A stretch of DNA of 40,590 nucleotides from positions 1-40,590 of IMG/VR virus record IMGVR_UViG_3300030090_001727. The stretch is one strand, 5' to 3'. The position numbers and the translations under genes were made by a program. Each line of letters starts with the position of its first letter. Positions within the stretch are counted from its first letter, which is position 1. Below, piece after piece: positions 18,940 through 31,032 of the stretch. The notes beneath the pieces are model-generated. The model was not told where the DNA came from and searched no databases. It saw only the letters and a program-made list of their open reading frames with translations. Source of the stretch: a virus.

Positions 18940-19470
18940 TTATAGGGTTTCTAAAGAACCGAAGCCAAAGAAAGCAGATTTAGTTTGCTTCTTTAATATG
19001 TTTTTATCTAGTACAAATAGATCAGATTGATACCTGTCTAGTACTTTAGGTTTACCTACACCTGCAATTTTATATTTATGATTAGGTAGTTTAACTACCA
19101 TAGCTTGTGGGTAATAGTTTTTTCTATACACTATTGGGAACTTACCCTGCTCAGTTGACTTAACTCCACCTCTGATACCTGCTTTTTCCATGTCAGGTAC
19201 GTTGTAGTTTCTTGATCCACCTATTGTGTAATCTACAAATTGTATTCCTAAATACTTTTCAATGGCTACTTCCGAACATATACCACCAAAAAATCTTTTC
19301 TGTATAGATAATCCATCTATTTCGTATTGAGCTTCCTGTTGTTTTGCTTTTACTATTATCTCTGAGAACTCTCTTACTCTTTTAATATCTATGTCATCTA
19401 ACTTAACAATAGGCTTGTATTTTAAATGTGGTTCTATAAGATACTTGTAACCTTTATTAATTAATAACAT
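18940..19470 (-). CDS. Unknown protein, possible PD-(D/E)XK-type nuclease, 176 aa
   Basis: No certain family. The central region reads GGICSEVAIEKYLGIQFVD, then NVPDMEKAGIRGGVKSTEQG, then YYPQAMVVKLPNHKYKIAG. An acidic residue in a helix (E), a PD pair and a G-V-K-S strand in this order recall PD-(D/E)XK endonucleases and recombinase-associated nucleases, though the canonical ExK is replaced by GVKS. It overlaps the SET-domain gene by 14 nt and is the last gene of the block that contains the Rad52-like annealing protein, which supports a nucleic-acid role. The start ATG lies inside the upstream gene. Confidence 0.5.
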   Translation of the reverse strand: MLLINKGYKYLIEPHLKYKPIVKLDDIDIKRVREFSEIIVKAKQQEAQYEIDGLSIQKRFFGGICSEVAIEKYLGIQFVDYTIGGSRNYNVPDMEKAGIRGGVKSTEQGKFPIVYRKNYYPQAMVVKLPNHKYKIAGVGKPKVLDRYQSDLFVLDKNILKKQTKSAFFGFGSLETL

Positions 19471-19762
19471 CTAAATTGTACATTGTATATTTAAGTGTGA
19501 GTTCTTCGCCTGGATCAATATCTTTTACAGTAGTCAAATACTTGTATCCGTTTATCTTGACAGTCTTACAGTTAGGTTTCTTGTTGTGATTAACAAAACC
19601 ACCAAGAGGAGTTCTAATATATCTGTTGGGAAATCTACTATCTTCTACGTGAGATATACCTAGACTATGTCCTTTGCTTATCTTTGTAACACAAAATAAA
19701 CCTAGCCCTTCTATATCCGATACTCTAATTGTTACGCAATCAGGTAAAGGTTTATAGTGCAT
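19457..19762 (-). CDS. SET-domain protein, putative lysine methyltransferase, 101 aa
   Basis: A minimal SET domain with the family signatures in order: EGLGLFCVTKISKG (18-31), GGFVNHNKKPNC (54-65, the NHxxxPNC signature) and DIDPGEELTLKYTMY (81-95, GEELxxxY). These bind S-adenosylmethionine and position the target lysine. At 101 aa it is a compact, stand-alone SET protein, as found in some phages and bacteria. It overlaps the Rad52-like gene by 11 nt upstream and the next gene by 14 nt. The target could be a phage or host DNA-binding protein. Catalysis is inferred, and the substrate is not known. Confidence 0.8.
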   Translation of the reverse strand: MHYKPLPDCVTIRVSDIEGLGLFCVTKISKGHSLGISHVEDSRFPNRYIRTPLGGFVNHNKKPNCKTVKINGYKYLTTVKDIDPGEELTLKYTMYNLDVIN

Positions 19763-20720
19763 TCTTTAGTTTATTTATCCAATCGCTACAAGTTACTTTA
19801 CTTGTGTTGTCTGAGTTAAGGTATTGTTTTGCCTCTGACGCAAGGCTATCAAGTCCTTTATCAATTGCTTGTGTTATTAGCTTTTCTAAAAAACCTCTTT
19901 GAGGTTCTGTCATTGGTTCTTCTTCTCTTCCTTTTTTCCAGTCATCGTTTGTAAAGTCCACGTCTTTCTCCTTTTCTGTTATGTCTTTTACTTCACTTAA
20001 GTTTTCTATAATCCTGTTTACTACTGGTTCATTGCCTCTTCTTTCTTCAAAAGTGTCGGCATGTTTTGTAATATATTCATCAACTAGATCTAAGAATATT
20101 ACTATGTCATTATCGTCCCATTGTTCAAGAGATTGTTTGTTTATTTTAATTACTGTCCTATTAAAACAATCGTTGTAACATTTTTTAGCAAAATCCTTAT
20201 CTTCTTTGCAACTTACAAATACCATATCTTTCAATGAGTTCTCAGTAATTCTTGGTTTAGAAGGGGATGTCCCAGTCTCTTGTGTTACTTTGTTTTTTTT
20301 TACAGGTGGAGTGACCGTTGTAGTTTTATTAGCGTAGTGTTCTTCTTCAGTTACTTCGCCTGTCCACAAGTGTAACCCAATACCATGACGCATTGCACCA
20401 CGTTTAAGTGCGTCTGACATACATAGCTTTAATAGTTCTCCCTCTGTATTGTTGTTGGCTACGTCTATATTATCAACGTCTCCTACCTCGTCATGTGATA
20501 CACCAAACAATGTAAAAGTAGTTACTGCTCCTCGTACTCTGCCTTCACTGTCCCTAACAACCTCTTTTAATGTGTGAGACCACTCTCCATAAGCTTGATC
20601 ATTTAGTCTTTTAGTAACTAAATGGTGTGGTACATAATTACCAAATTTACCTTTTGGTGGTGGCTTTACTTCGTCTTTACCGAATGGTTTAGTTAGTTTC
20701 TTTTGTGTTTCTTTATCCAT
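19752..20720 (-). CDS. Rad52/22-type single-strand DNA annealing protein, 322 aa
   Basis: The N-terminal 125 residues show the Rad52 pattern: HHLVTKRLNDQAYGEWSHTL, a beta segment with GAVTTFTLFGVSHDEVGD, and the signature LLKLCMSDALKRGAMRHGIG followed by LHLW. The rest is charged linker plus a helical C-terminus (MTEPQRGFLEKLITQAIDKG) that resembles a small protein-interaction domain. Function: annealing of complementary single strands during phage recombination and replication, usually with a nuclease partner; the possible nuclease two genes downstream would fit. It overlaps its neighbours on both sides. Confidence 0.85.
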   Translation of the reverse strand: MDKETQKKLTKPFGKDEVKPPPKGKFGNYVPHHLVTKRLNDQAYGEWSHTLKEVVRDSEGRVRGAVTTFTLFGVSHDEVGDVDNIDVANNNTEGELLKLCMSDALKRGAMRHGIGLHLWTGEVTEEEHYANKTTTVTPPVKKNKVTQETGTSPSKPRITENSLKDMVFVSCKEDKDFAKKCYNDCFNRTVIKINKQSLEQWDDNDIVIFLDLVDEYITKHADTFEERRGNEPVVNRIIENLSEVKDITEKEKDVDFTNDDWKKGREEEPMTEPQRGFLEKLITQAIDKGLDSLASEAKQYLNSDNTSKVTCSDWINKLKNAL

Positions 20721-20919
20721 TTTCTTTATCCTCGTTTATTAATTTGTAGACACGTTGCCTACTAAGATTAGTAATTTTACTAACCTGTATTACTGAAAGA
20801 CCTTCTTCCAGTAATCTTTTTATTAGTCTAGTCCTGTCGTCTGACAGTTTTTGTAGCTCACTTCTTTTAGTTTCAATTAATAAATTGTTAAAGTTTAATT
20901 CGTCTATCAACTTATTCAT
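20713..20919 (-). CDS. Small helix-turn-helix protein, 68 aa
   Basis: The C-terminal half (SVIQVSKITNLSRQRVYKLI) is a recognisable helix-turn-helix of resolvase/sigma-like type; the N-terminal half is a charged helix (NNLLIETKRSELQKLSDD). Probably a small DNA-binding protein that regulates or assists the annealing protein. It overlaps the annealing gene by 8 nt (ATGGATAA) and the upstream gene by 8 nt. Confidence 0.6.
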   Translation of the reverse strand: MNKLIDELNFNNLLIETKRSELQKLSDDRTRLIKRLLEEGLSVIQVSKITNLSRQRVYKLINEDKENG

Positions 20920-21112
20920 TTACAAAACCATTGAAGTTATCGTCACTATCCCACATATCAGAAGGTTCATTTAGTTTTATAAATTCAAACTTCATTGTTT
21001 CTACAAGTTTAGTAAGTCTTAATATATCGTCTAACATTGCTAATGTAGTAAACAACGTTGCTACTACTAGCAATGATAAGACTGAACCACCGACAATAAT
21101 TGCTAAATCCAT
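20912..21112 (-). CDS. Small single-pass membrane protein, 66 aa
   Basis: An N-terminal membrane helix (LAIIVGGSVLSLLVVATLFTT, residues 3-23) is followed by an acidic cytosolic-type tail (DMWDSDDNFNGFVNE). No family recognised. It starts at an ATG that overlaps the previous stop (TAATG), behind an SD sequence that also encodes the EEE tail of the upstream gene. Confidence 0.5.
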   Translation of the reverse strand: MDLAIIVGGSVLSLLVVATLFTTLAMLDDILRLTKLVETMKFEFIKLNEPSDMWDSDDNFNGFVNE

Positions 21113-21372
21113 TATTCCTCTTCTTTAAAAGCTTCGTTTAGTATTGTGTCAGGGTTGTCTGCAACGTATTGACCCTTCTCGTTTCTTGCTCTTACAAGAT
21201 CACCATCTTCGTCTTCTTCTATTGTTTGTATTACAACAGGTATGTTTGCAGTTAAAGTTGTAAGTATTATTTGATTACCTACTCTTATTGCTGAAGCTTT
21301 GAATACTTGACTATCGTCTATCTTTAGTTGTAATAATTCTTCAACTAAGCTTTCTACTGTTTTTTCTTCCAT
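21112..21372 (-). CDS. Unknown small acidic protein, 86 aa
   Basis: The helical N-terminus (EEKTVESLVEELLQLKIDD) leads into a beta segment (RVGNQIILTTLTANIPVVIQ), then NEKGQYVADNP. No family recognised. It ends in EEE-stop, where the Glu codons also serve as the ribosome binding site of the next gene. The start overlaps the upstream 27-aa gene by 1 nt. Confidence 0.5.
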   Translation of the reverse strand: MEEKTVESLVEELLQLKIDDSQVFKASAIRVGNQIILTTLTANIPVVIQTIEEDEDGDLVRARNEKGQYVADNPDTILNEAFKEEE

Positions 21373-21455
21373 TATATTTTATCCTTTTCTATAAGCCACC
21401 AAGCAAAATAATTTACACCAATAACAATTCCAATTATTAAAATGGTATCGATCAT
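21372..21455 (-). CDS. 27-aa membrane peptide
   Basis: One hydrophobic segment (TILIIGIVIGVNYFAWWLI) with a basic end (EKDKI). The start overlaps the stop of the previous gene (ATGA) and its own stop overlaps the next start (TAATG). This precise chaining supports translation despite the length. Confidence 0.5.
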   Translation of the reverse strand: MIDTILIIGIVIGVNYFAWWLIEKDKI

Positions 21456-21664
21456 TCTTCTTCTAGGCTTTCTCTTACTTCATTCATAGTTTGCATGTTA
21501 AAATTAAAATCAACTACAAACTGTTCAATTAATTTATCAATCGTATGAACATCATATTTATTTAATTTGATACTTGTTTGTTGAACCTCTTGTCCACCAC
21601 AAGCGTTAGCTAAATTGATAGCCCATTTTTTTAGTGCCTTAGGCTCACTAAATAAATTAGCCAT
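21452..21664 (-). CDS. Unknown protein, 70 aa
   Basis: Begins MANLFSEPKALKKWAINLAN and contains QQTSIKLNKYDVHTIDKLIE; mostly helical, ends LEEE-stop. Strong GGAG before ATG. No family recognised; part of the coupled chain of small genes downstream of the MT-A70 methyltransferase. Confidence 0.5.
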   Translation of the reverse strand: MANLFSEPKALKKWAINLANACGGQEVQQTSIKLNKYDVHTIDKLIEQFVVDFNFNMQTMNEVRESLEEE

Positions 21665-21694
21665 AACGTTCTCCTTTTCTGTATTGTTTCCTAC

Positions 21695-21859
21695 CTATAC
21701 AACAACAGTAGAAGATTGAGTGAACTTAACAACATATCGTCCTGCAACGTCCTTAAGTTGTCTGATCCTCTTGTTTGCTTCAACAAGACTGTCAAACTCC
21801 CACATCATTTCTTCATTGCTGTATATATCAATAGCTGTAACTATATACATCATATTCAT
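21695..21859 (-). CDS. Unknown small protein, 54 aa
   Basis: MNMMYIVTAIDIYSNEEMMW, then FDSLVEANKRIRQLKDVAG and a beta end (RYVVKFTQSSTVVV). The short alpha/beta pattern resembles the small proteins that phages encode in large numbers. No strong ribosome binding site before ATG. Coding is supported by an uninterrupted frame with phage-like codons. Confidence 0.45.
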   Translation of the reverse strand: MNMMYIVTAIDIYSNEEMMWEFDSLVEANKRIRQLKDVAGRYVVKFTQSSTVVV

Positions 21860-21893
21860 AATGTTATCACACATTTACAATTAATGACAACAA

Positions 21894-22013
21894 TCATTGT
21901 ATTTCCTTTTCTTCCCTGTCTGCTAGGTATTCGTCTGTAAGCATGTCCATTACTAAGTTAGGATCAGCTTTATAATCTTTGTTATTAAACACAATCCAAT
22001 ACTCTCTTTTCAT
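21894..22013 (-). CDS. Unknown small protein, 39 aa
   Basis: MKREYWIVFNNKDYKADPNL and an acidic/basic C-terminus (YLADREEKEIQ). The start overlaps the stop of the upstream gene by 4 nt (ATGA), typical of real coupled genes here. No family recognised. Confidence 0.5.
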   Translation of the reverse strand: MKREYWIVFNNKDYKADPNLVMDMLTDEYLADREEKEIQ

Positions 22014-22216
22014 ATTGTTCTTATGCCGTTCCTAATATTTTTAAGAAGTTGTGTAGCCTGTACTAGCTTTTTGTAGTCCTCACTATCCTCACTCTTGTTC
22101 TCAAGTGTCCAACTTACTATGTCTTTATACTCTTTATCCGTTATGAATTTCATTGTGTTCCTTTCTATATCTAATTCTTCGTCTAAATCGTCTAATATAA
22201 CTTCGTCAAATATCAT
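22010..22216 (-). CDS. Unknown acidic protein, 68 aa
   Basis: Acidic N-terminus (FDEVILDDLDEELDIE) and helical remainder (EYKDIVSWTLENKSEDS, QATQLLKNIRNGIRTI). It overlaps the methyltransferase gene by 4 nt (ATGA), so it is translated with it. No family recognised; a partner of the methyltransferase is possible but unsupported. Confidence 0.5.
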   Translation of the reverse strand: MIFDEVILDDLDEELDIERNTMKFITDKEYKDIVSWTLENKSEDSEDYKKLVQATQLLKNIRNGIRTI

Positions 22217-22746
22217 AGTTCATTACCCCAACTGTCCCACCCTTCAACAGATTGCCTAGCAAATAGTTCTATGCGTGGTAAATCACCTGCTAATTCAATA
22301 ATTTTGTTTCTTACTATCTCAGGTTTCTTTGAATGTTCCTGCACTGGTTCTTCAATAATGCTATGAACACTAGCACTAACTCTCTTTGGTTTACCTTTGA
22401 CTGCAAGTAAACAAACCTCTGCATTTGATCTAGTCCACCTTCCCATACCCCAAAAATTTGTATCAGTAGATACTTTGTTTTTCTTTACCCAAGTAAAAGC
22501 ATTTGTTTTATATGTAAATCCCCATGCCTTTATTACTTCTTCTGTCTCAAATATTTTTGGGAAAGTAGTCCACATAAATAGTATTGCATTTTCTTCTGTA
22601 ATATCTTTAATAGGTAGTCTTGCAATATCTTCTATTGACATTGTCTCGTAGTATCTTAATGCTCCTCCTCTATGTTTAGAGGGATCATCATAACTCCAAG
22701 GTGGATCAGCATATATAATGTTGTATTTTTTATTAGGTAGTTTCAT
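22213..22746 (-). CDS. MT-A70 family DNA N6-adenine methyltransferase, 177 aa
   Basis: Contains the catalytic DPPW motif (YNIIYADPPWSYDD, residues 8-21), then FMWTTFPKIFETEEVIKAWG, WVKKNKV, FWGMGRWTRSNAEVCLLAVK, the region HSKKPEIVRNKIIE, and the C-terminal RIELFARQSVEGWDSWGNE. The order and spacing match phage MT-A70 enzymes, which methylate adenine in DNA using S-adenosylmethionine. Normal length. Good SD (AAAGGAAC) before ATG. First gene of the 22746-18940 block. Likely protects phage DNA from restriction; the recognition sequence is unknown. Confidence 0.9.
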   Translation of the reverse strand: MKLPNKKYNIIYADPPWSYDDPSKHRGGALRYYETMSIEDIARLPIKDITEENAILFMWTTFPKIFETEEVIKAWGFTYKTNAFTWVKKNKVSTDTNFWGMGRWTRSNAEVCLLAVKGKPKRVSASVHSIIEEPVQEHSKKPEIVRNKIIELAGDLPRIELFARQSVEGWDSWGNEL

Positions 22747-22763
22747 TTGTTCCTTTCTTAATT

Positions 22764-22782
22764 TTTCTACACCTGCCTACAC
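22764..22782 (-). promoter_or_regulatory. GTGTAG direct-repeat element upstream of the methyltransferase
   Basis: On the minus strand GTGTAGGCAGGTGTAGAAA carries two GTGTAG copies one helical turn (10 bp) apart, 18 bp before the gene. 17 of 19 bases match the element at 25346-25364, upstream of the next minus-strand block. Confidence 0.4.
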
Positions 22783-22875
22783 AATCCTAATATAATTCCT
22801 ATTACTTAAATTAGTTATGTACTATACTTAGATTAAGATCATCTTTATTCATATAAAAATGACCTTTCTTTATTC

Positions 22876-22907
22876 AATAATAACCACTAGCAATAGTGGT
22901 TATTATT
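22876..22907 (-). terminator. 14-bp perfect hairpin at the end of the 25275-22907 block
   Basis: A perfect 14-bp stem (ATAACCACTA arm and its complement) with loop GCAA on the plus strand begins at the last base of the stop codon at 22907. No T-run follows on the minus strand, so it may act as a 3'-end stabiliser or a weak terminator. It separates this block from the methyltransferase block. Confidence 0.6.
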
Positions 22908-23194
22908 TAGAATGGTTTATCTTCTCTAGGAATGTCCATACTTCCTTCATAAGCCATGTCATATAGTATCTCTGCATTCCTTAGCTCTTTGTATAAAGAG
23001 TTTAAGTATGCTCTTTGTTGCCGTAATAAGAACCTCTGCTCATTGTGTCTAGCATATCTTATATCACTCCAACTAGATTTTTTCTGTTGTGATATTCTTT
23101 CTAGTTCTTTATCTATTTCTTTTATCAAATGATCTAACATTTCGTCTGCCGTAACTTCGCCCATGCCGAATACATTTTTTTTATTTGGTGTCAT
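22907..23194 (-). CDS. Unknown protein, 95 aa
   Basis: Two long charged helices (EMLDHLIKEIDKELERISQQ and RHNEQRFLLRQQRAYLNSLY) suggest a coiled-coil hairpin. It overlaps the upstream gene by 4 nt. Last gene of its block and followed at once by a strong hairpin. No family recognised. Confidence 0.5.
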   Translation of the reverse strand: MTPNKKNVFGMGEVTADEMLDHLIKEIDKELERISQQKKSSWSDIRYARHNEQRFLLRQQRAYLNSLYKELRNAEILYDMAYEGSMDIPREDKPF

Positions 23195-23388
23195 TCTTCC
23201 TCCTCTACATAAATATCTAAACTTTCCCCAGTTACTTCGCCTAAACCTATGGCGTGTATCTGCAATCTTTGATATTCTTTTTCGTGGTCTTTAGGCATTA
23301 AGTAAATGTTTACATTCTTATTACCACTTACATACTGGATAGCGTCAATCAGTTCTTCTACCTTCCATTGTTCTGTACTTTGTATCAT
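23191..23388 (-). CDS. Unknown small protein, 65 aa
   Basis: Start placed at ATG 23388, which has GAGGAGGAG immediately upstream; an in-frame start at 23415 lies inside the previous gene without an SD. Contains VEELIDAIQYVSGNKNVNIY and ends VEEEE-stop, with the Glu codons forming the SD of the next gene. No family recognised. Confidence 0.5.
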   Translation of the reverse strand: MIQSTEQWKVEELIDAIQYVSGNKNVNIYLMPKDHEKEYQRLQIHAIGLGEVTGESLDIYVEEEE

Positions 23389-23561
23389 TCCTCCTCCTCG
23401 TGATCGTCTTTCCATATAACTACTAGACCTCCTAATTCATATTCAGCTATATCATTATCATTTAGTTCCTCTTTGGAATATGTGCTTGTATAACCCCAAT
23501 TAGTATGTCCGTAATTATCTCTACAATATTCGTCTAAATATTCTGTTGCGTCTCTACCCAT
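23385..23561 (-). CDS. Unknown acidic protein, 58 aa
   Basis: Start at ATG 23561 with GGAGGAATA upstream, preferred over ATG 23582. MGRDATEYLDEYCRDNYGHT, then NDIAEYELGGLVVIWKDD and EEEE-stop. Tyr- and Asp-rich. Its stop overlaps the next start (ATGA). No family recognised. Confidence 0.5.
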   Translation of the reverse strand: MGRDATEYLDEYCRDNYGHTNWGYTSTYSKEELNDNDIAEYELGGLVVIWKDDHEEEE

Positions 23562-23569
23562 TATTCCTC

Positions 23570-23767
23570 CTATTCTTTCCAATTATATTTTTTAGCTAAT
23601 TCAAATAAGCTAACAAATATATGGTGTTTATCTTCTTGTTCTATGTGTAGTTCCAAATCACTATCTATAAATAAATAGTTATTACTTTCTTCCCCAAACA
23701 TAGACATATAGTCCTCTTTGTATGCGTCATAATATTTATTTAACATATCTAATATATCTTGTTTCAT
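23570..23767 (-). CDS. Unknown protein, 65 aa
   Basis: MKQDILDMLNKYYDAYKEDY and FIDSDLELHIEQEDKHHIFV; alpha followed by beta. The TAATG overlap with the upstream stop and the GGAGGAGGAATA SD support the start. No family recognised. Confidence 0.5.
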   Translation of the reverse strand: MKQDILDMLNKYYDAYKEDYMSMFGEESNNYLFIDSDLELHIEQEDKHHIFVSLFELAKKYNWKE

Positions 23768-23976
23768 TATTCCTCCTCCTTAAGATCGCCTGTCATTTCA
23801 TACCAAACTCCACCGTCTTCTACTTCGTCCTCATACCATTTTCCATATTGGAATTTATCTTCTTCACCATTAGACCAACTCTCATGTGCCTCCTCAAAAG
23901 TCTTAGCACCTTTGATACCTAGCCTATATGTTTCAGTTACAACTAATGTATAACCTACTTCTTTTTGTTTATTCAT
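23767..23976 (-). CDS. Unknown small protein, 69 aa
   Basis: Start chosen at ATG 23976 (MNKQKEVGYTLVVTETYRLG), which has GAAGGAAAG upstream and an 8-nt overlap with the previous stop; a longer frame from 24021 would run 53 nt into that gene. Ends LKEEE-stop with the built-in SD. Contains many Glu, Tyr and Trp (HESWSNGEEDKFQYGKWYED). No family recognised. Confidence 0.5.
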   Translation of the reverse strand: MNKQKEVGYTLVVTETYRLGIKGAKTFEEAHESWSNGEEDKFQYGKWYEDEVEDGGVWYEMTGDLKEEE

Positions 23977-24226
23977 ACTTTCCTTCGTCTTCCCCAAACA
24001 TATCTTCCCAACATTTACCATGTGTTCCTGATATTAATTGTTCTTTTTCTTCTACCTGTAAAGATTTAACTGCGTCTTGAATAAATGCACCCTGTCTTAA
24101 TTCAAATAATTCTCTAGGGAGAATTTCAACTGTTCCACCTCGTCCACAATGGAAACACAAACCTGTGTCCATTAAATAGGTAAATTCACGAGTTGCCTCG
24201 TTATATATTTTTTCAATTACTTTCAT
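23969..24226 (-). CDS. Putative zinc-binding protein, 85 aa
   Basis: A zinc-ribbon-like CFHCGRGG (C24, C27) is paired with a distal HGKCWEDMFG motif (H69, C72), a candidate Cys3His site. The segment QLISGTHGKCWEDMF recalls small proteins common in actinobacteriophages, from memory and unverified. SD AAAGGAAAG before ATG. The function is unknown. Confidence 0.55.
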   Translation of the reverse strand: MKVIEKIYNEATREFTYLMDTGLCFHCGRGGTVEILPRELFELRQGAFIQDAVKSLQVEEKEQLISGTHGKCWEDMFGEDEGKYE

Positions 24227-24236
24227 ACTTTCCTTT

Positions 24237-24404
24237 CTAATCTATGTTTATTGGGTAATGACAATGCGAACAAAAATATACTTCTTCTAATACATTCTCA
24301 GTACCAACAAACTTGATCTGATCTCCACAACATAGGCAATTAATACTTAAACCTTCTAGCCTATTTGTTTTAACAACATGTTCAAAGAATAATATATTAC
24401 TCAT
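24237..24404 (-). CDS. Small zinc-ribbon protein, 55 aa
   Basis: INCLCCGDQIKFVG followed by VYFCSHCHYPINID gives a C-x-x-C...C-x-x-C zinc ribbon (C23/C25/C26 and C45/C48). The start overlaps the upstream stop by 1 nt (TAATG). Possible role as a small nucleic-acid or protein adaptor. Confidence 0.6.
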   Translation of the reverse strand: MSNILFFEHVVKTNRLEGLSINCLCCGDQIKFVGTENVLEEVYFCSHCHYPINID

Positions 24405-24589
24405 TACCACCCCTCTAATGTGTCAATATCTTCTAACTTTATCTTGTAATTATTAGCAACTTTCTTTAATAATATTTTTGTATAGTATCGCTGATCGCTG
24501 TTCATATCATTCACAAACGCTTGACAAAATAAATATTCTATTGCCTCTAAACAATCGTCTTTACTAACTTCGTTTATTTGTTTACTCAT
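24404..24589 (-). CDS. Unknown protein, 61 aa
   Basis: MSKQINEVSKDDCLEAIEYL, then YYTKILLKKVANNYKIKLED; all-helical impression. Start overlaps the upstream stop by 8 nt (ATGAGTAA). No family recognised. Confidence 0.5.
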   Translation of the reverse strand: MSKQINEVSKDDCLEAIEYLFCQAFVNDMNSDQRYYTKILLKKVANNYKIKLEDIDTLEGW

Positions 24590-24854
24590 TGTCTAACTCT
24601 CTTGTGATAATGTCAAAGACCTGTTCTCTTACAAAGCTATCAATATTGTAAAAGCTGTAATAGTATTTCTTGTTATCAATACCTCTTAACCTTTCAATAT
24701 CTAATACTTTTATAATTGTTTCTAGTATCTTGTCTTGTGTGAAACCTTCATACTCTTTATAAAACTCTTGTATGTAAGCAACACCTTCAATCAATGAAAG
24801 CAGATCGCCTTCTACTTTGAAATCGTAACTCGATTTTATTTCAATCTTACCCAT
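24582..24854 (-). CDS. Unknown protein, 90 aa
   Basis: MGKIEIKSSYDFKVEGDLLS, then AYIQEFYKEYEGFTQDKILE; alpha/beta. Overlaps the upstream gene by 8 nt (ATGGGTAA). No family recognised. Confidence 0.5.
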   Translation of the reverse strand: MGKIEIKSSYDFKVEGDLLSLIEGVAYIQEFYKEYEGFTQDKILETIIKVLDIERLRGIDNKKYYYSFYNIDSFVREQVFDIITRELDNE

Positions 24855-25275
24855 TTGTAATAAGACTTTCTTTTTCTAAAGCAGATATTAAATCTTCTTT
24901 ATCATATTCATAACTATCTACAAAGACTTTTGGTAAGCCTGACTTATCTAATTCACTAACAATATGATAAGTATATTCTTCCCAATGGTCTGTATCACTT
25001 GCAACAATACCAACACTCAAAAAGTCAAGTGGGTTGTCCTTCCAATCACTTGCAAATTTCATAGCTAAATCAACTACAAATTTACTAGCTAGGTATGGAC
25101 TATCTTCAAAGCGATTATCCATTTCAGTATCTCTTAAGGTTTGTAGAAACTCAAGCAAGTCAAGTCCTCCACCTTCTAAATAGTTATCCCAATGTCTGTA
25201 AATTACAGCATTAGGTTTTTCTTTTTCCAACATTTCTACACTATCGTAGAATTTATATAGCCCTCTTGTAGCCAT
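24847..25275 (-). CDS. Conserved phage protein, 142 aa, first gene of its block
   Basis: Begins MATRGLYKFYDSVEMLEKEK and continues AVIYRHWDNYLEGGGLDLLE, a start I remember from a widespread phage and plasmid family (MATR...Y.HWD.Y..G) of unknown role. A helical domain follows (LASKFVVDLAMKFASDWKDN), then GIVASDTDHWEEYTYHI. It is first after a candidate promoter and palindromic operator, and the rest of the block is coupled to it by overlaps. Confidence 0.6.
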   Translation of the reverse strand: MATRGLYKFYDSVEMLEKEKPNAVIYRHWDNYLEGGGLDLLEFLQTLRDTEMDNRFEDSPYLASKFVVDLAMKFASDWKDNPLDFLSVGIVASDTDHWEEYTYHIVSELDKSGLPKVFVDSYEYDKEDLISALEKESLITNG

Positions 25276-25303
25276 AATAACCTTCTTTCTTTATCTTGAT
25301 TAC

Positions 25304-25332
25304 ATGGTAACAGAAGTTTACATATATGTAAA
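25304..25332 (-). promoter_or_regulatory. Candidate promoter of the 25275-22907 block
   Basis: On the minus strand a TTTACA -35 (25332-25327), 17-bp spacer, and TACCAT -10 (25309-25304) preceded by TGT (extended -10). The -35 lies in a perfect palindrome, so a repressor could block it. Confidence 0.45.
25317..25332. promoter_or_regulatory. 16-bp perfect palindrome, candidate operator
   Basis: TTTACATATATGTAAA is a perfect inverted repeat overlapping the putative -35 of the minus-strand promoter. It is a natural site for a dimeric regulator. Confidence 0.45.
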
Positions 25333-25345
25333 GTATTGTTGTTTC

Positions 25346-25364
25346 TTTCTACACTAGCCTACAC
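25346..25364 (-). promoter_or_regulatory. GTGTAG direct-repeat element, second copy
   Basis: On the minus strand GTGTAGGCTAGTGTAGAAA, with GTGTAG twice at 10-bp spacing. Matches 22764-22782 at 17 of 19 bases, and lies upstream of the promoter candidate. Confidence 0.4.
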
Positions 25365-25377
25365 CGTAGTTTCGTGT

Positions 25378-25406
25378 GATCGATCATAAAGCAGATCGAT
25401 CATAAA
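25378..25406. repeat. 13-bp direct repeats with palindromic cores
   Basis: GATCGATCATAAA occurs at 25378-25390 and 25394-25406, 16 bp apart. GATCGATC is itself a palindrome and carries two GATC sites per copy. Followed by an AT-rich stretch. An operator or iteron-like origin is possible. Confidence 0.5.
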
Positions 25407-25412
25407 ATTGTA

Positions 25413-25450
25413 TAAAAAAAACCCTCAACTCTAAGGGTAAAGTCGAGGGC
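25413..25450 (-). terminator. Rho-independent terminator of the 26895-25471 block
   Basis: Read on the minus strand, GCCCTCGACT pairs with AGTTGAGGGT (two G-U pairs) around a 10-nt loop, followed by a run of seven T. On the plus strand the stem has a mismatch but also ends in TTTTTT, so it may work in both directions. Confidence 0.75.
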
Positions 25451-25470
25451 TTTTTTCGGTTAGTTGGTGT

Positions 25471-25587
25471 TTAAGTATCTAAACCGATTGATTTTCTAAA
25501 GTTTTTAAACACATGATTAAAGGGTGATTCTTTACCTAAAAAAAAGTAAACAACCAACCAACAACACAAAGCTAGTTTAAATAACAT
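25471..25587 (-). CDS. Small membrane protein, 38 aa
   Basis: MLFKLALCCWLVVYFFLG is a membrane segment, followed by a basic tail (FNHVFKNFRKSIG). Its start overlaps the upstream stop (TAATG) behind an SD that encodes the previous protein's KEVS end. Last gene before the terminator. Confidence 0.5.
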   Translation of the reverse strand: MLFKLALCCWLVVYFFLGKESPFNHVFKNFRKSIGLDT

Positions 25588-25718
25588 TAGCTAACCTCTT
25601 TTTGTTTTTTATTATATTCTTCTAATTGTTGAGCTAGTTTTTTATATCTTTCCTCCGTAGTTCCAACAGGGTTTCCGAATATATCCTCCCACTCAACCTT
25701 ATTTATATCTATATTCAT
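25587..25718 (-). CDS. Unknown small protein, 43 aa
   Basis: MNIDINKVEWEDIFGNPVG then a helical charged region (RYKKLAQQLEEYNKKQKEVS). SD AGAGGTTAGAGA before ATG. The C-terminal EVS-stop is the coupling signal for the next gene. Confidence 0.5.
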   Translation of the reverse strand: MNIDINKVEWEDIFGNPVGTTEERYKKLAQQLEEYNKKQKEVS

Positions 25719-25755
25719 TCTCTAACCTCTTTCTTTAATGGTGACTAAGCACCTC

Positions 25756-25779
25756 ACAAGCACCGTTTAAAGTGCTTGT
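25756..25779 (-). terminator. 8-bp hairpin after the 145-aa gene
   Basis: ACAAGCAC and GTGCTTGT form a perfect stem with an 8-nt loop, 7 bp beyond the stop at 25787 on the minus strand. No T-run, so a weak attenuator or processing site rather than a full terminator. Confidence 0.45.
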
Positions 25780-25786
25780 AAGCTGT

Positions 25787-26224
25787 TTATTCTTCTTCAG
25801 GTTCTTGACCTTCGAGAATTTCTTCCATTGCTTGACCTACTAATCTATGATATAAATCATATAAATTGCCCTGTAATATATCGAAGGGTGAAGGGTTTTC
25901 TAAACCGTAACTAAAATCAGAAACATTTAACCATACTTCAGACCATTCCTCACCAACTAAAGCAAAGCATTTTTCGATTAACTGATAATAATAAACTGGA
26001 ATAAAACTATCAACAATTTCATTAAAATCAGAATCTTCAAAACTTGCCCTCAGTTCTTCGATTGTATAACTAGCGATCAGATCGCTCTTTATATCTTCGA
26101 TTAAATCGTAACTAGATAACTCTTTAATTTCTTTCATTAATTCACCTCCCTTAGTTTTCTTTGGAGTTGGTACTCCATTTAGATTCCTTAACTGTTCTTC
26201 TTCAGTTATATTTAATCTTGGCAC
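25787..26224 (-). CDS. Unknown acidic protein, 145 aa, with two possible starts
   Basis: Start taken at GTG 26224, which follows AAAGGGAGG at good spacing. A second in-frame ATG at 26137 has its own strong AAGGGAGG, and a 116-aa product is equally plausible; both may be made. Helical, acidic: KELSSYDLIEDIKSDLIASY, LRASFEDSDFNEIVDSFIPV, and the end QAMEEILEGQEPEEE. No family recognised. Confidence 0.5.
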   Translation of the reverse strand: MPRLNITEEEQLRNLNGVPTPKKTKGGELMKEIKELSSYDLIEDIKSDLIASYTIEELRASFEDSDFNEIVDSFIPVYYYQLIEKCFALVGEEWSEVWLNVSDFSYGLENPSPFDILQGNLYDLYHRLVGQAMEEILEGQEPEEE

Positions 26225-26234
26225 TTTGCCTCCC

Positions 26235-26501
26235 TTAGTCCCAAAATAATTTGCCGTCTTGTACAAAGTGAGAACCGTCCTCGGTCTTGTGTGTGTAGTG
26301 TTCCTCGTCTATCTCGGAAAGTTCTTCTGCTTTTCCGTGGTCTTCCGTCACACTCCAACCACATTCATTAAGTCTTACCGTGTGCATATTCTCACCACCA
26401 TTTGAGGTGTATTCTGTAATATATTCTTCAGCCTCGCTCTCACTATCAGCGAGAACATAAGCCTCGCTCTCTTGTGTATAAGTTAATTTATATATATTCA
26501 T
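26235..26501 (-). CDS. Unknown acidic protein, 88 aa
   Basis: MNIYKLTYTQESEAYVLADS and ESEAEEYITEYTSNGG suggest a small ferredoxin-like alpha/beta fold of the DpnD/PcfM type (from memory, unverified), then a second acidic half (TEDHGKAEELSEIDEEHYTH). Coupled to the upstream gene by TAATG and a GGGAGGTGAG SD. Confidence 0.5.
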   Translation of the reverse strand: MNIYKLTYTQESEAYVLADSESEAEEYITEYTSNGGENMHTVRLNECGWSVTEDHGKAEELSEIDEEHYTHKTEDGSHFVQDGKLFWD

Positions 26502-26671
26502 TAACTCACCTCCCTTTTTAGGTTTTTAACATTTCCTAGTATTTCTTCTAAGTCCATAATTTGAATATTTTGACTTGCCTCAAATTGTCTTAATCTTCTT
26601 TTATGGTCTCTCTTTGTACTTTCGATTTTAAATTCAATAAGTTTAATTATTGTATCTAAGTAATTATCCAT
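26501..26671 (-). CDS. Basic helical protein, 56 aa
   Basis: MDNYLDTIIKLIEFKIESTK, then RDHKRRLRQFEASQNIQIMD and LKREVS-stop. Basic central helix, possible nucleic-acid or protein binding. Coupled on both sides by REVS-stop/TAATG modules. Confidence 0.55.
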   Translation of the reverse strand: MDNYLDTIIKLIEFKIESTKRDHKRRLRQFEASQNIQIMDLEEILGNVKNLKREVS

Positions 26672-26895
26672 TAACTAACCTCCCTTTGTATGTTTTTATA
26701 TTGTGCTTGTACTTCTTCCGAAAGTTTATAGACTCCCTTAGAGACTCTAACCATTCTTCCTTTGAGTGTGCTTTGCCCTGTAATTCTTCTTACATTATGA
26801 GTAATAATATTCAACTCACTTGCAATAGTTTTATTATCGGCAACGCCAACTTTATTCAAGTAGTTTTCTACTTGTTGTGTTTGTGTCAATTTCAT
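26671..26895 (-). CDS. Winged-helix DNA-binding protein, 74 aa
   Basis: Helix-turn-helix with wing: TQQVENYLNKVGVADNKTIA, SELNIITHNVRRITGQSTLKG, then RMVRVSKGVYKLS. Start at ATG 26895 (weak AGTAGG upstream); a longer frame starts at 26922 without an SD. First gene of the 26895-25471 block and near the only long regulatory gap, so a phage transcription regulator is likely. Confidence 0.65.
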   Translation of the reverse strand: MKLTQTQQVENYLNKVGVADNKTIASELNIITHNVRRITGQSTLKGRMVRVSKGVYKLSEEVQAQYKNIQREVS

Positions 26896-26961
26896 ATTAA
26901 CTAACCTACTTTCTTTATTCATAATTTAACAATAGCAGTTTACAAATCTTATGCACTAGAT

Positions 26962-26989: not shown

Positions 26990-27494
26990 CCCTCCCAGTA
27001 GTGTTTCAAAAAAGGTACAGGGTGTTTTATTTAGGTATCATAACGGCACAAATGCACAAGATTATTTATATATTTTGTATGCAAATAAATCTATATGTAA
27101 AGTATAGATATAGATTATATGCAGGTAAACAGGCAGGGTTTAACCTGATCCCCACCATATTTTTATATGAGACCTTTAAAAAATAACTGTTAATTTTGTA
27201 CTAAATATACACAATATGTAGTAGGTACAAATACAGTAAGTACAATGTATTGTGTAGTACCGATTCACTGGCTGTTGAAGCGTAGCGAGCCTATATGCTG
27301 TAAAAGCTATTTTTGTTTAATTTTTATTGTTCCAAGATCCTTGAGTATTAGGTTTGTGTTTCTGCTTTATACTTTTGTAAGTATTCCTAACTTTCTGCCC
27401 CTCGATGGCAACTTTACTTGTAACAATGTACTTAATAAAAATATTTGTTAGGACATACTATAGCAGGTCGTTAATGAATGTGTAGTATTAATAT

Positions 27495-27555
27495 TGAGGG
27501 TTGCGTATGGCTAGGAGTTTCCTCCTTTCGCCTAGTTACCTCTACGTAGCCCTCA
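27495..27555 (+). ncRNA. Structured RNA element with anti-Shine-Dalgarno loop
   Basis: The outer stem of 13 bp joins TGAGGGTTGCGTA (27495-27507) with TACGTAGCCCTCA (27543-27555), two G-U pairs. An inner 8-bp stem joins TGGCTAGG (27508-27515) with CCTAGTTA (27531-27538), with a 4-nt bulge. The 15-nt loop contains CCTCCTTTC (27521-27529), the same as the 3' end of 16S rRNA. A competing hairpin AGGAG-TTTC-CTCCT (27513-27526) would hide it. No strong promoter found upstream; transcription is inferred from the structure. Confidence 0.5.
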
Positions 27556-27564
27556 GGTTTCTAC

Positions 27565-27591
27565 TTGATTGTTTGTAAACTATGGTATACT
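27565..27591 (+). promoter_or_regulatory. Promoter of the putative small RNA
   Basis: TTGATT (27565-27570) and an extended -10 TGGTATACT (27583-27591). The 15-bp spacing is short, but the TGN extension compensates. Predicted start near 27598. Confidence 0.5.
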
Positions 27592-27597
27592 TATGAC

Positions 27598-27708
27598 TCA
27601 ATACAATCCCTTGTATTAGTACTTAATAATGGTAGGGCGTCTTAGACCAAGGATGTTGGAACTAGCAATAGCAACAACATCCTCCTACCTAATAAAAAAA
27701 TTTTTTTT
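27598..27708 (+). ncRNA. Putative small RNA with intrinsic terminator
   Basis: About 110 nt. Hairpin 1: AATACAA-TCCC-TTGTATT (27600-27617). Hairpin 2: outer stem GGTAGG (27631-27636) with CCTACC (27684-27689), enclosing GTC/GAC (27639-27647) and GGATGTTG (27651-27658) with CAACATCC (27675-27682), topped by CTA-GCAA-TAG. It ends in A7 followed by T8 (27701-27708). A 29-codon frame (ATG at 27629) runs through it without an SD, so a tiny protein is the alternative reading. Confidence 0.5.
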
Positions 27709-27766
27709 ACACACTTAATTTACGGATCTATATATATTGTAAGTACACAACAATTAACAAGCATAG

Positions 27767-28309: not shown

Positions 28310-28479
28310 AAGTTAAAGGTGTAGATGTTTCTAAGTTGACCAAGAGTCAACAGAATGCTATGAAAAAACATTCTAAGCATCATACAAAAAAACACATGCA
28401 ATACATGTATAACTCTATGAGAAGAGGTAGCTCTTTTAATAAAGCACATGTCAATGCACAAAAGAAAGTAGGAAAGTAA
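28306..28479 (+). CDS. Basic His-rich mini-protein, 57 aa
   Basis: KLTKSQQNAMKKHSKHHTKK, then HMQYMYNSMRRGSSFNKAH and KKVGK. The helical KKHSKHHTKKHM core is very basic. It resembles a marine-phage family I remember but cannot name. ATGA overlap upstream, TAATG downstream. Confidence 0.6.
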   Translation: MKVKGVDVSKLTKSQQNAMKKHSKHHTKKHMQYMYNSMRRGSSFNKAHVNAQKKVGK

Positions 28480-28718
28480 TGGCAAAGAAACCTAAAAGAA
28501 AACCAATTAATGCACAGACAAAAAAAACATTACAAGCTAAAGCTGCAAAATCTAAATACACTTATGGTCAATTAGCACAAGTGTACAGAAGAGGTCAAGG
28601 TGCATATTTGTCGTCAGGATCTAAATCAGCTTCTATGGCTGCTTGGGCTATGGGAAGAGTAAATAGTTTTATTCGTGGTGGACACTCTCAAGACAATGAT
28701 ATTAAAAAGAAAAAATGA
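28479..28718 (+). CDS. Basic protein with YGQLAQVYRRGQGAY motif, 79 aa
   Basis: Contains YTYGQLAQVYRRGQGAYLSS and AAWAMGRVNSFIRGGHSQDN. The VYRRGQGAY..SG and W..GRVNSF pieces are those I associate with DUF5824-type phage proteins (unverified). Highly basic ends (KKPKRKP, IKKKK). Translationally coupled on both sides. Confidence 0.6.
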   Translation: MAKKPKRKPINAQTKKTLQAKAAKSKYTYGQLAQVYRRGQGAYLSSGSKSASMAAWAMGRVNSFIRGGHSQDNDIKKKK

Positions 28719-29015: not shown

Positions 29016-29111
29016 TTGATTATACAATGTCCTCGCTGTGGTGGAGATTTACTACCAAGTGATGATATGAAATGTACAAACAAAGATTGCAAGAATTATG
29101 GAAAAAAATAA
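29016..29111 (+). CDS. 31-aa zinc-ribbon protein
   Basis: With TTG start: IIQCPRCGGDLLPSDDMKC then TNKDCKNYGKK, giving CPRC...C-x4-C. Two bp after the upstream stop; overlaps the terminase start by 14 nt. No SD, so the start is uncertain, but the zinc-ribbon is clear. Confidence 0.5.
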   Translation: MIIQCPRCGGDLLPSDDMKCTNKDCKNYGKK

Positions 29112-31032
29112 ACTGTGTTACGCAGCAGGATGTCACAGACCTTTACCAAAAGGTCGCTCTAAGTTTTGCAGTGATCGTTGTTCTAATCGTATAAATCAAC
29201 AAAAGAAAAGGGCAAGACGTCAAAATAAAGAGTGGTCACAAGAAGATGACATTTTAAATATTCCTAGTCAAAAAAAGAATGTATCGTCTAGACGTGGACA
29301 AGTTTATGATGACATTAAAGAATCTGGACTTGCACTTGAGATTTATGAAAAAACAAACACTATTGCAGGTGTAGCAAAAATATTAGGAACTACAGATGCT
29401 GCAGTATCTATGGCATACCAGGCATATTTAGAAGATGTAAGTATAGCTAATGAACAAAAAAATTGGTCAGTACCTCAAGTTGCTGAAAAAACATTAGAGG
29501 ACTTTGATAAATTTAGAGCAAGATATTTTAGAACAGAACAAGGCATACCGTATGAAACACCAGAGTTTCATGTCAAGTGGATAGAACAGATTATGAATAC
29601 CATAGAAAATGGTGGTCAAAGAATGATATTATCACCACCTCGTCATGGTAAAACAGATTTGCTTATACATTTTGTTATTTGGTTGATATGCAAAAATCCT
29701 AACATAAGAATTTTATGGGTAGGTGGTAACGAAGATATATCTAAAAATGCTATGGGTTCTGTATTAGATCAATTAGAGTTTAACGAATTACTTATAGAAG
29801 AAATATGTGGACCTGGAATAAAATTTAAACCTAAAACAAAATCAGCTAAGTCTTGGTCACAAAGTGGTTTTACTGTTGGTACGAGAACGGTTACTGGTAT
29901 CAAGAGTCCGACCATGGTAGGTATAGGTCGTGGTGGTAAGATTCTATCAAGAGACTGTGACATAATTATTGCAGATGACATTGAGGATCATAGTTCTACT
30001 ATGCAACCTGCATCAAGAGAAAACACAAGAAACTGGTGGACTACAACATTATCAAGTCGTAAAGAGGAACATACTGCAATGATTGTTATAGGTTCAAGAC
30101 AACACTATGACGATTTATATTCTCATTTACTAGACAATGAATCTTGGGAAACAACTGTAGAAGAAGCTCACGATACTGCATGTACTAAAACTGATTGGAA
30201 TGAAGAAGATCATAAAGATTGTATGTTATGGAGTAGTAAGAGATCTTACAAATGGTTAATGGATAGAAAACGTGCAGCAGAGACAACAGGTGGTAGAGCT
30301 ATATACGAAATGGTCTATCTTAATGTTGCAATGCCAGAAGGCTTAAGTTTATTTAGTAGAGAAGAAATTGAAGCATGTCGAGACCAGAAGAGGGACATAG
30401 GGCAGATACCTAGAGGCACACGCCTTATTGCAGGACTTGACCCTGCCTCTACTGGTTATCAAGCTGCTTTTCTTTGGGCTTATGGTCCTGCAGACGGAAT
30501 TATGTACATGGTAGATATGCACAATAATTTAGGTGGTGGTATTCCAGAAGCTCTTAGTGTGATAAAAGATTGGTGGCAAAAATATAATTGTTCACACTGG
30601 GTTATAGAAGAAAACGGATTTCAAAAAGCTATACGACAAGATAAATCTATACGTGATTTTGCCTCACAACATGGTATATTTTTAGAAGGACATGAAACGT
30701 ATTCTAATAAGTATGACCCTATTTTTGGTGTAACAGCTATGCGACCTGCGTTTCAAGAAGGTATAATTAATTTACCTTATATGGGTTTTGAAGCTCAAGA
30801 AAAGGTAAACTTATATACAAGTCAGTTAGTGTATTTTAGTTCTGCTAAAAACAAAAGCAAGACAGTAGGTACAAAGACTGACATTGTTATGGCTAGTTGG
30901 TTTCCAATGAGAGCAATTAGACGTATGCAAAAAGAACGATTAGCTGAACTAGACACAGACTATGTGCCTAGCTTTGCTGATTATGAAACAAGTAGTTTTG
31001 ACGAAGGAATATGGGATACTAACCGATGGTAA
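29098..31032 (+). CDS. terL: Terminase large subunit with N-terminal zinc finger and helix-turn-helix, 644 aa
   Basis: The ATPase motor and nuclease that package DNA. Walker A SPPRHGKTDLL (about residue 180) and Walker B DIIIADDIEDHSS (about 290) are clear, as is the nuclease start IAGLDPASTGYQAAF (about 448). Residues 1-30 add a Cys4 finger (C7, C12, C24, C28) and about 85-112 a helix-turn-helix (TIAGVAKILGTTDAAVSMAY). This extension is unusual for large subunits and resembles the DNA-binding part of small subunits, and no separate small-subunit gene is evident. The portal gene follows with a 7-nt overlap. Confidence 0.9.
   Translation: MEKNKLCYAAGCHRPLPKGRSKFCSDRCSNRINQQKKRARRQNKEWSQEDDILNIPSQKKNVSSRRGQVYDDIKESGLALEIYEKTNTIAGVAKILGTTDAAVSMAYQAYLEDVSIANEQKNWSVPQVAEKTLEDFDKFRARYFRTEQGIPYETPEFHVKWIEQIMNTIENGGQRMILSPPRHGKTDLLIHFVIWLICKNPNIRILWVGGNEDISKNAMGSVLDQLEFNELLIEEICGPGIKFKPKTKSAKSWSQSGFTVGTRTVTGIKSPTMVGIGRGGKILSRDCDIIIADDIEDHSSTMQPASRENTRNWWTTTLSSRKEEHTAMIVIGSRQHYDDLYSHLLDNESWETTVEEAHDTACTKTDWNEEDHKDCMLWSSKRSYKWLMDRKRAAETTGGRAIYEMVYLNVAMPEGLSLFSREEIEACRDQKRDIGQIPRGTRLIAGLDPASTGYQAAFLWAYGPADGIMYMVDMHNNLGGGIPEALSVIKDWWQKYNCSHWVIEENGFQKAIRQDKSIRDFASQHGIFLEGHETYSNKYDPIFGVTAMRPAFQEGIINLPYMGFEAQEKVNLYTSQLVYFSSAKNKSKTVGTKTDIVMASWFPMRAIRRMQKERLAELDTDYVPSFADYETSSFDEGIWDTNRW

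Follow-up and report, generated by a model that had tools for sequence, protein, structure and literature searches.

The window analysed here, a 40,590-base IMG/VR virus record taken at its whole length, carries a hairpin within a 0.9-kb intergenic stretch that separates a minus-strand gene block of early type from plus-strand genes leading to the terminase gene (29098-31032). The loop of this hairpin, AGTTTCCTCCTTTCG, contains CCTCCTTTC, and a previous reading, made from the sequence alone (hereafter the sequence-only reading), had described it as a copy of the anti-Shine-Dalgarno tail of 16S rRNA. This raises the question as to whether the hairpin is a functional RNA and, if so, upon which messages it might act. 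The terms early and late are used here on the basis of gene content and layout; the early block includes an Erf-like annealing protein and an MT-A70 methyltransferase.

Direct reading of the sequence bears out the proposed hairpin at 27495-27555, with its 13-bp outer stem (including two G-U pairs), 8-bp inner stem and 15-nt loop (Table 1). As a plus-strand RNA, the element folds with an energy of -29.9 kcal/mol (z -4.8), and in the comparison with shuffled sequence that the sequence-only reading had suggested, none of 200 shuffles was as stable. The minus-strand fold is weaker (-22.9 kcal/mol, z -3.1), and the minus-strand reading, a GGAG-GAAA-CTCC hairpin, was rejected because it folds less well and is contradicted by the G-U pairs of the stem, which fit only the plus strand; the orientation supposed earlier is thereby upheld. 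A competing AGGAG-TTTC-CTCCT hairpin, from which a switch had been proposed, does exist and is nearly isoenergetic in the window (-29.3 versus -29.9 kcal/mol, with an ensemble probability of approximately 0.34 for the window sequence), but it is not kept in variants: inner stems of the TAAG/CTTA, GTGAG/CTCAC or CGAG/CTCG type cannot form its five pairs. Switching between the two folds is therefore not supported.

Table 1. Features of the hairpin locus and of its candidate targets, in coordinates of the window.
Feature	Position	Strand	Sequence	Basis or remark
Early gene block	18940..26922	-		Loop pairing to its ribosome-binding sites exceeds that of shuffled loops
Candidate target ribosome-binding site of early gene 22907-23194 (95 aa)	23195..23224	-	GTAGAGGAGGAAGAATG	Best loop duplex in the window, -15.3 kcal/mol
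PL, extended -10 promoter-like site	27457..27465	-	TGCTATAGT (on the minus strand)	Faces the early block; putative promoter
P1, -10 region	27479..27488	+	TGTGTAGTAT	Ends 6 nt before the outer stem; putative function
Predicted small RNA, approximately 72 nt (hairpin and U-rich tail)	27495..27566	+		Fold, z-score, covariation, promoter/tail arrangement; putative transcript
Outer stem, 5' arm	27495..27507	+	TGAGGGTTGCGTA	Sequence, fold, covariation
Inner stem, 5' arm	27508..27515	+	TGGCTAGG	Sequence, fold, covariation
Conserved loop, 15 nt	27516..27530	+	AGTTTCCTCCTTTCG	Constant while both stems vary; co-changes with targets in one lineage
Inner stem, 3' arm	27531..27538	+	CCTAGTTA	Sequence, fold, covariation
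Outer stem, 3' arm	27543..27555	+	TACGTAGCCCTCA	Sequence, fold, covariation
T-rich stretch, weak intrinsic-terminator tail	27556..27566	+	GGTTTCTACTT	Sequence
P2, second promoter-like site toward late genes	27565..27591	+	TTGATT ... TGGTATACT	Sequence; putative function

The element or a close variant lies upstream of the terminase gene in approximately 35 of the 80 relatives fetched with the terminase, with an almost invariant core, TAGGAGTTTCCTCCTTTCGCCTA; the exact 23-nt core is present in 98 IMG/VR stretches, and the element is far beyond chance. Its distribution is patchy, with only two of 72 relatives that have one related terminase carrying it. Among relatives, the outer stem is wholly different in sequence yet complementary (GAGGGTTGCG/CGTAGCCCTC, GCAGGGTTTTTGT/ACAGAAACCCTGC and TAGGGTGAATTACT/AGTAGTTCACCCTA), and the inner stem also varies (TAGG/CCTA, CAGG/CCTG, TAAG/CTTA) around the unchanged 15-nt loop, which as RNA reads AGUUUCCUCCUUUCG. 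A single loop change is seen in L074. Further loop variants were sought in 72 related loci, where only unclear cases (L304 and L264) were found; at the element's place in L264 (7750-7850), the opposite strand has a hairpin with the core TTTCCTCCTTT (plus-strand reading, AAAGGAGGAAATC), which may be an inverted copy.

Covariation in both stems around a constant loop, the test put forward in the sequence-only reading, was found by two measures. When the arms of 30 distinct members were swapped, a test not fitted to the model, pairing weakened from -21.4 kcal/mol for a member's own arms to -13.4 ± 0.7 kcal/mol for permuted ones. In a 66-member alignment that was fitted to the model, 92.7% of cells are paired and 15 of 16 pairs show double changes, with a covariation score of 0.491 compared to 0.186 for shuffled alignments (0 of 500) and at most 0.12 when slid. 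A covariance model matches the predicted small RNA in the window with 71.4 bits. G-U pairs in the stems of relatives identify the plus strand as the RNA strand. The hairpin is thus real, plus-stranded and strongly selected.

The loop also extends beyond the window's marine family. Pattern scans in which the stem was not fixed and the exact loop was required, and which show recurrence of the loop on stems rather than the extent of loop variation, recovered the same loop on long, unrelated stems in phages of 46-70% GC: ACCAAAGGAG/CTCCTTTGGT in L206-L210, GCCCCCGTCGAG/CTCGGCGGGGGC in L211 and L212, GACGGG/CCCGTC in L213, TCGTGTTCGG/CCGGATACGA followed by a terminator in L239, and GTCCGGTCAG/CTGATCGGGC in L225. 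Few loop matches lacked stems, and the carriers overall span 33-70% GC. With blastn, region or short element queries against cultured phages and plasmids gave no clear homologue besides an unannotated human-gut phage fragment (L261, MT837417.1 2802-3622), in which BLAST revealed the same kind of hairpin: its loop is AGUUUGCUCCUUUCG (AGTTTGCTCCTTTCG), its stem is long and GC-rich, and a run of six T follows. Mycobacteriophage blastn matches were rejected as an ordinary terminator. A stem-restricted pattern matched once in the GTDB species set, in a phage-like contig of a MAG (L170), and in no other of 395 genomes of its phylum, so this is not a common bacterial RNA. Nearly all phage relatives of the capsid and exonuclease are actinophages, and WhiB is encoded by two distant carriers; Actinobacteria are therefore the probable host clade. 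Terminase matches are mixed, and the family of the window itself yielded no WhiB. Two different phages (L137, which is G001, and L211, L212) have a gene encoding a von Willebrand-type protein close to the small RNA. In L211, the gene before the small RNA has a ribosome-binding site, AAAGGAAGGAAACT, whose complementarity covers almost the entire loop, with a single base bulged out.

The surroundings of the hairpin resemble those of a gene. Of 31 distinct relatives, 26 show an extended -10 site, TGNTANNAT, at -28 to -35 relative to the core, where shuffled sequence gives a mean of 1.3. P1, in the subgroup of the window, is a variant of this site, TGTGTAGTAT, and was not listed by a general promoter scan of the window. 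With approximately 6-8 nt between the end of the -10 element and the stem foot, the hairpin would form the start of the RNA, and transcription from P1 would begin at approximately 27494-27496. In most relatives, a divergent TGNTATAGT-type site is found some 20-30 nt before P1, such that the two putative promoters overlap. Toward the late genes, TTGCAT or TTGACT with TGNTATAAT is kept at the P2 position in relatives. The T-rich tail of the window is weak and was not called by a simple terminator scan; it is stronger in some relatives (CTTTTTTT in L090), and seven or more T directly follow the stem in some.

The most informative relative in this respect is G001, whose capsid and terminase are 87% and 54% identical to those of the window and in which the late genes, with the element as reference, are on the opposite strand. 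Here the same loop is located elsewhere and flanked by other genes; TGATATAAT immediately precedes the hairpin, and a separate and perfect terminator, with eight T, follows it. Hairpin and terminator are likewise combined in L228, L243, L246 and the GC-rich L239, and terminators are clear in all five of these and in L090. The design in G001, L228, L243 and L246, with its own promoter-like site, a terminator and another location, points to a separate small RNA gene rather than a leader, and the element is best read as a small RNA gene of approximately 70 nt.

The position between divergent gene blocks near the terminase gene, and the seven or more T after the stem in some relatives, would also fit an element that is only a transcription terminator, or a DNA hairpin marking an origin, packaging or recombination site, with its loop conserved by descent. 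We consider this highly improbable, however, since a terminator needs no constant loop and G001 has a separate one; moreover, the stems diverge completely while the loop is constant, the loop recurs with unrelated stems in unrelated phages, and the G-U pairs indicate RNA.

Other features share this region. Downstream of P2, at 27631-27689 of the window, there is a second structured RNA-like element composed of GGTAGGGCGTCTTAGACC, a hairpin and then TCCTACC; in L005, L008, L013 and L017, GTAGGRYGTCTTAGACC is kept and the inner stem varies (GGATGTTG/CAACATCC, GGGTACTT/AAGTACCTT). Nearly all relatives also share, within this intergenic stretch, the A-tract/T-tract found at 27694-27711 of the window (AAAAAAATTTTTTTT, then ACAC). 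Downstream of the element in L033, L080 and L150 lies another CCTCCTTTC stretch (e.g. GACCCTCCTTTCTTTGTTTG), followed by a GC-rich hairpin, and the same combination precedes the terminase gene in L042-L054; it is seen also in relatives that have no element.

The loop AGTTTCCTCCTTTCG is predicted to pair with ribosome-binding sites of the AAAGGAGGAAA type. With genes called as simple ATG-based open reading frames (ATG or GTG for GC-rich records), GGAGG is present in 27% of minus-strand ribosome-binding sites versus 7% of those on the plus strand. In nine full-length genomes of the marine family (the window, G001-G007 and G009), the top five duplexes between loop and ribosome-binding sites were compared with those of composition-matched shuffled loops. 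Early-strand duplexes beat the shuffled loops in all nine genomes (0 to 13 of 300 shuffles as good), whereas late-strand duplexes did so in none (32 to 188 of 300). The pairing potential to strong ribosome-binding sites that the sequence-only reading had ascribed to the loop is therefore present, and is concentrated in the minus-strand early genes. Such shuffle tests, however, also reward general Shine-Dalgarno strength. On the early sites of standard-loop phages, similar scores are reached by the 16S tail and even by the loop in reverse, so the enrichment alone could reflect strong Shine-Dalgarno sequences.

The description of the loop as a copy of the 16S tail holds for CCUCCUUUC, which is shared, but not for the remainder, which differs from rRNA: where the loop has AGUUU, 16S rRNA has AUCA. 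This conserved 5' part of the loop matches the phage's own early ribosome-binding sites, as does the altered loop of one lineage. Elsewhere in the window there is no exact complement of the loop, and a site with three mismatches at the ribosome-binding site of 28479-28718 is not beyond chance. In L263, G004 and G007, several early ribosome-binding sites share a palindrome-like sequence, TTGTTTAAACAATG, that spans the start codon and might be an operator or RNA hairpin for another regulator.

The altered loop, UUGUUCUCCCUUUCA, occurs on a retained hairpin in L024, L025 and further contigs, six in all, which have the same loop and count as one evolutionary event; two of them (G009 and G010) include early genes. 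There, two early ribosome-binding sites are AAAGGGAGAACAAAUG, a 13-nt perfect complement of UUGUUCUCCCUUUCA (-19.9 kcal/mol), and four more early genes have AAAGGG sites (one GAAAGGGAGUAAUG and three GAAAGGGUAAA). On the early sites of these phages, their own loop beats the standard one (mean -10.7 versus -9.0). In phages with the standard loop, the sites of related genes are of the GGAG type, as illustrated by AAAGGAGGAAGUAUG in G003 versus GAAAGGGAGUAAUG in G009. Complementarity to the targets has thus been kept by compensatory change in one lineage, as seen in the two contigs that include early genes. This one co-change supports the view that the RNA represses early mRNAs of the phage itself, and is stronger evidence for the targets than the enrichment among early sites. 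Because the changed loop matches the phage's own early ribosome-binding sites, the RNA probably switches early genes off via base pairing. Our preferred reading, to which we assign a probability of about 0.57, is that the element encodes a phage regulatory RNA of approximately 70 nt that would pair with the ribosome-binding sites of early mRNAs and block their translation.

The co-change also bears on the possibility that the loop is recognised by an RNA-binding protein of the phage or host (S1-like or polymerase-bound), in which case the RNA would be a decoy or would signal processive antitermination. A loop that had only to complement a Shine-Dalgarno sequence could be shorter and less strictly conserved; this one also has a fixed A-G mismatch and a closing G-C pair, and in the window terminator-like hairpins lie between the element and the late genes, as for put-type antiterminators. 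Yet in one lineage the whole loop was replaced with the hairpin kept, and the targets changed too. Furthermore, P2 follows the element in the window, the G001-type and L239 copies end at a strong terminator immediately after the hairpin, and the element is not fixed in its position with respect to the late genes. A protein site consequently appears improbable.

A small RNA directed mainly at the host would pair with the Shine-Dalgarno sequences of host mRNAs, or compete with the 16S tail, and so lower host translation, the matches to phage early genes being a by-product of strong Shine-Dalgarno sequences. The same loop recurs across phages with GC contents of 33-70%, a complement of the Shine-Dalgarno sequence is almost universal, and among GC-rich carriers the phage's own ribosome-binding sites are not enriched for loop pairing in G408 and G409 and only weakly so in G012 and G410. 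Had the RNA been directed at the host in general, however, the fit of the altered loop in G009 and G010 to their own AAAGGG-type early sites would not be expected, and we regard this explanation as rather unlikely.

For the preferred reading, that of a small RNA acting on phage early mRNAs, we infer transcription, timing and repression as follows. P1, back to back and overlapping with the early-gene promoter, would start transcription at the hairpin foot, and transcription would end at the hairpin foot and U-rich stretch, or at a separate terminator in relatives. The resulting RNA of approximately 70 nt would display AGUUUCCUCCUUUCG in its loop, which would pair with the A-rich Shine-Dalgarno regions (AAAGGAGGAAA) of early mRNAs and block ribosome binding, such that early protein synthesis would stop when the late side of the genome becomes active. 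Messages of the host may be targeted as well. A phage family in which one private loop fits many early ribosome-binding sites of the phage itself would thus constitute a simple translational early-to-late switch, and the natural co-change of loop and targets is ready for testing. A wider proposal, which we advance tentatively, is that of an RNA family across phages of 33-70% GC, at least several of them actinophages, in which the hairpin might combine a terminator with the display of a nearly universal anti-Shine-Dalgarno loop and broadly restrain the translation of early phage, and perhaps host, mRNAs; loop and ribosome-binding sites might co-evolve, giving each lineage a private early-to-late switch.

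No Rfam family matches the window at gathering score or positions 27430-27620 at E up to 10, and no relevant RNA emerged when the literature was searched for the loop sequence. This would be an Rfam-absent RNA family in widespread marine phages, with no cultured member in the collection searched. Several phage RNAs are comparable in part. In phages P1 and P7, c4 RNA uses loop complementarity to prevent translation from a phage ribosome-binding site (PMC12197685), but it has a single target (ant) and an immunity function, whereas here a separate small gene would have many early targets. Mycobacteriophages L5 and D29 produce abundant non-coding RNAs from the early lytic promoter that are toxic to the host (PMC5712189); compared by description, these are likewise actinophage non-coding RNAs, but arise from a region of approximately 500 nt with no evident terminator. 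The skipping-rope RNA (RF02924), an sRNA-classed family reported in phage sequences, has a multi-hairpin, pseudoknotted architecture and another sequence, and was rejected, with no covariance-model match at E up to 10 in the window record.

Small RNAs with anti-Shine-Dalgarno loops are already known from bacterial chromosomes, where they act on bacterial mRNAs. The 6C/B11 RNA of mycobacteria and other actinobacteria has C-rich hairpin loops that pair with ribosome-binding sites and block translation, as proven by compensatory mutations in loop and UTR (PMC10470900, citing Mai et al. 2019). The likeness lies in pairing of a hairpin loop to the ribosome-binding site and in hosts that here, too, seem to be actinobacteria; 6C/B11, however, is chromosomal, with two C-run loops against G tracts and host targets, compared to one AGUUUCCUCCUUUCG loop, a phage gene and phage early targets here. 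The 6C covariance model gave no cmscan match in the window at gathering score or in 27430-27620 at E up to 10. Cuckoo RNA, or alpha-r14, such as NfeR1 of Sinorhizobium, has a constant CCUCCUCCC loop on highly variable stems and silences mRNAs at the translation start (PMC10746234, PMC3927594). A constant anti-Shine-Dalgarno loop on variable stems is a shared property rather than a sign of membership: cuckoo RNAs have three or four CCUCCUCCC hairpins each and reside in Rhizobiales chromosomes, whereas the present element has one hairpin with a different loop and resides in phages. The element is thus not a member of either family and is without their defining features, but in its proposed action it works like the 6C/B11 and cuckoo RNAs.
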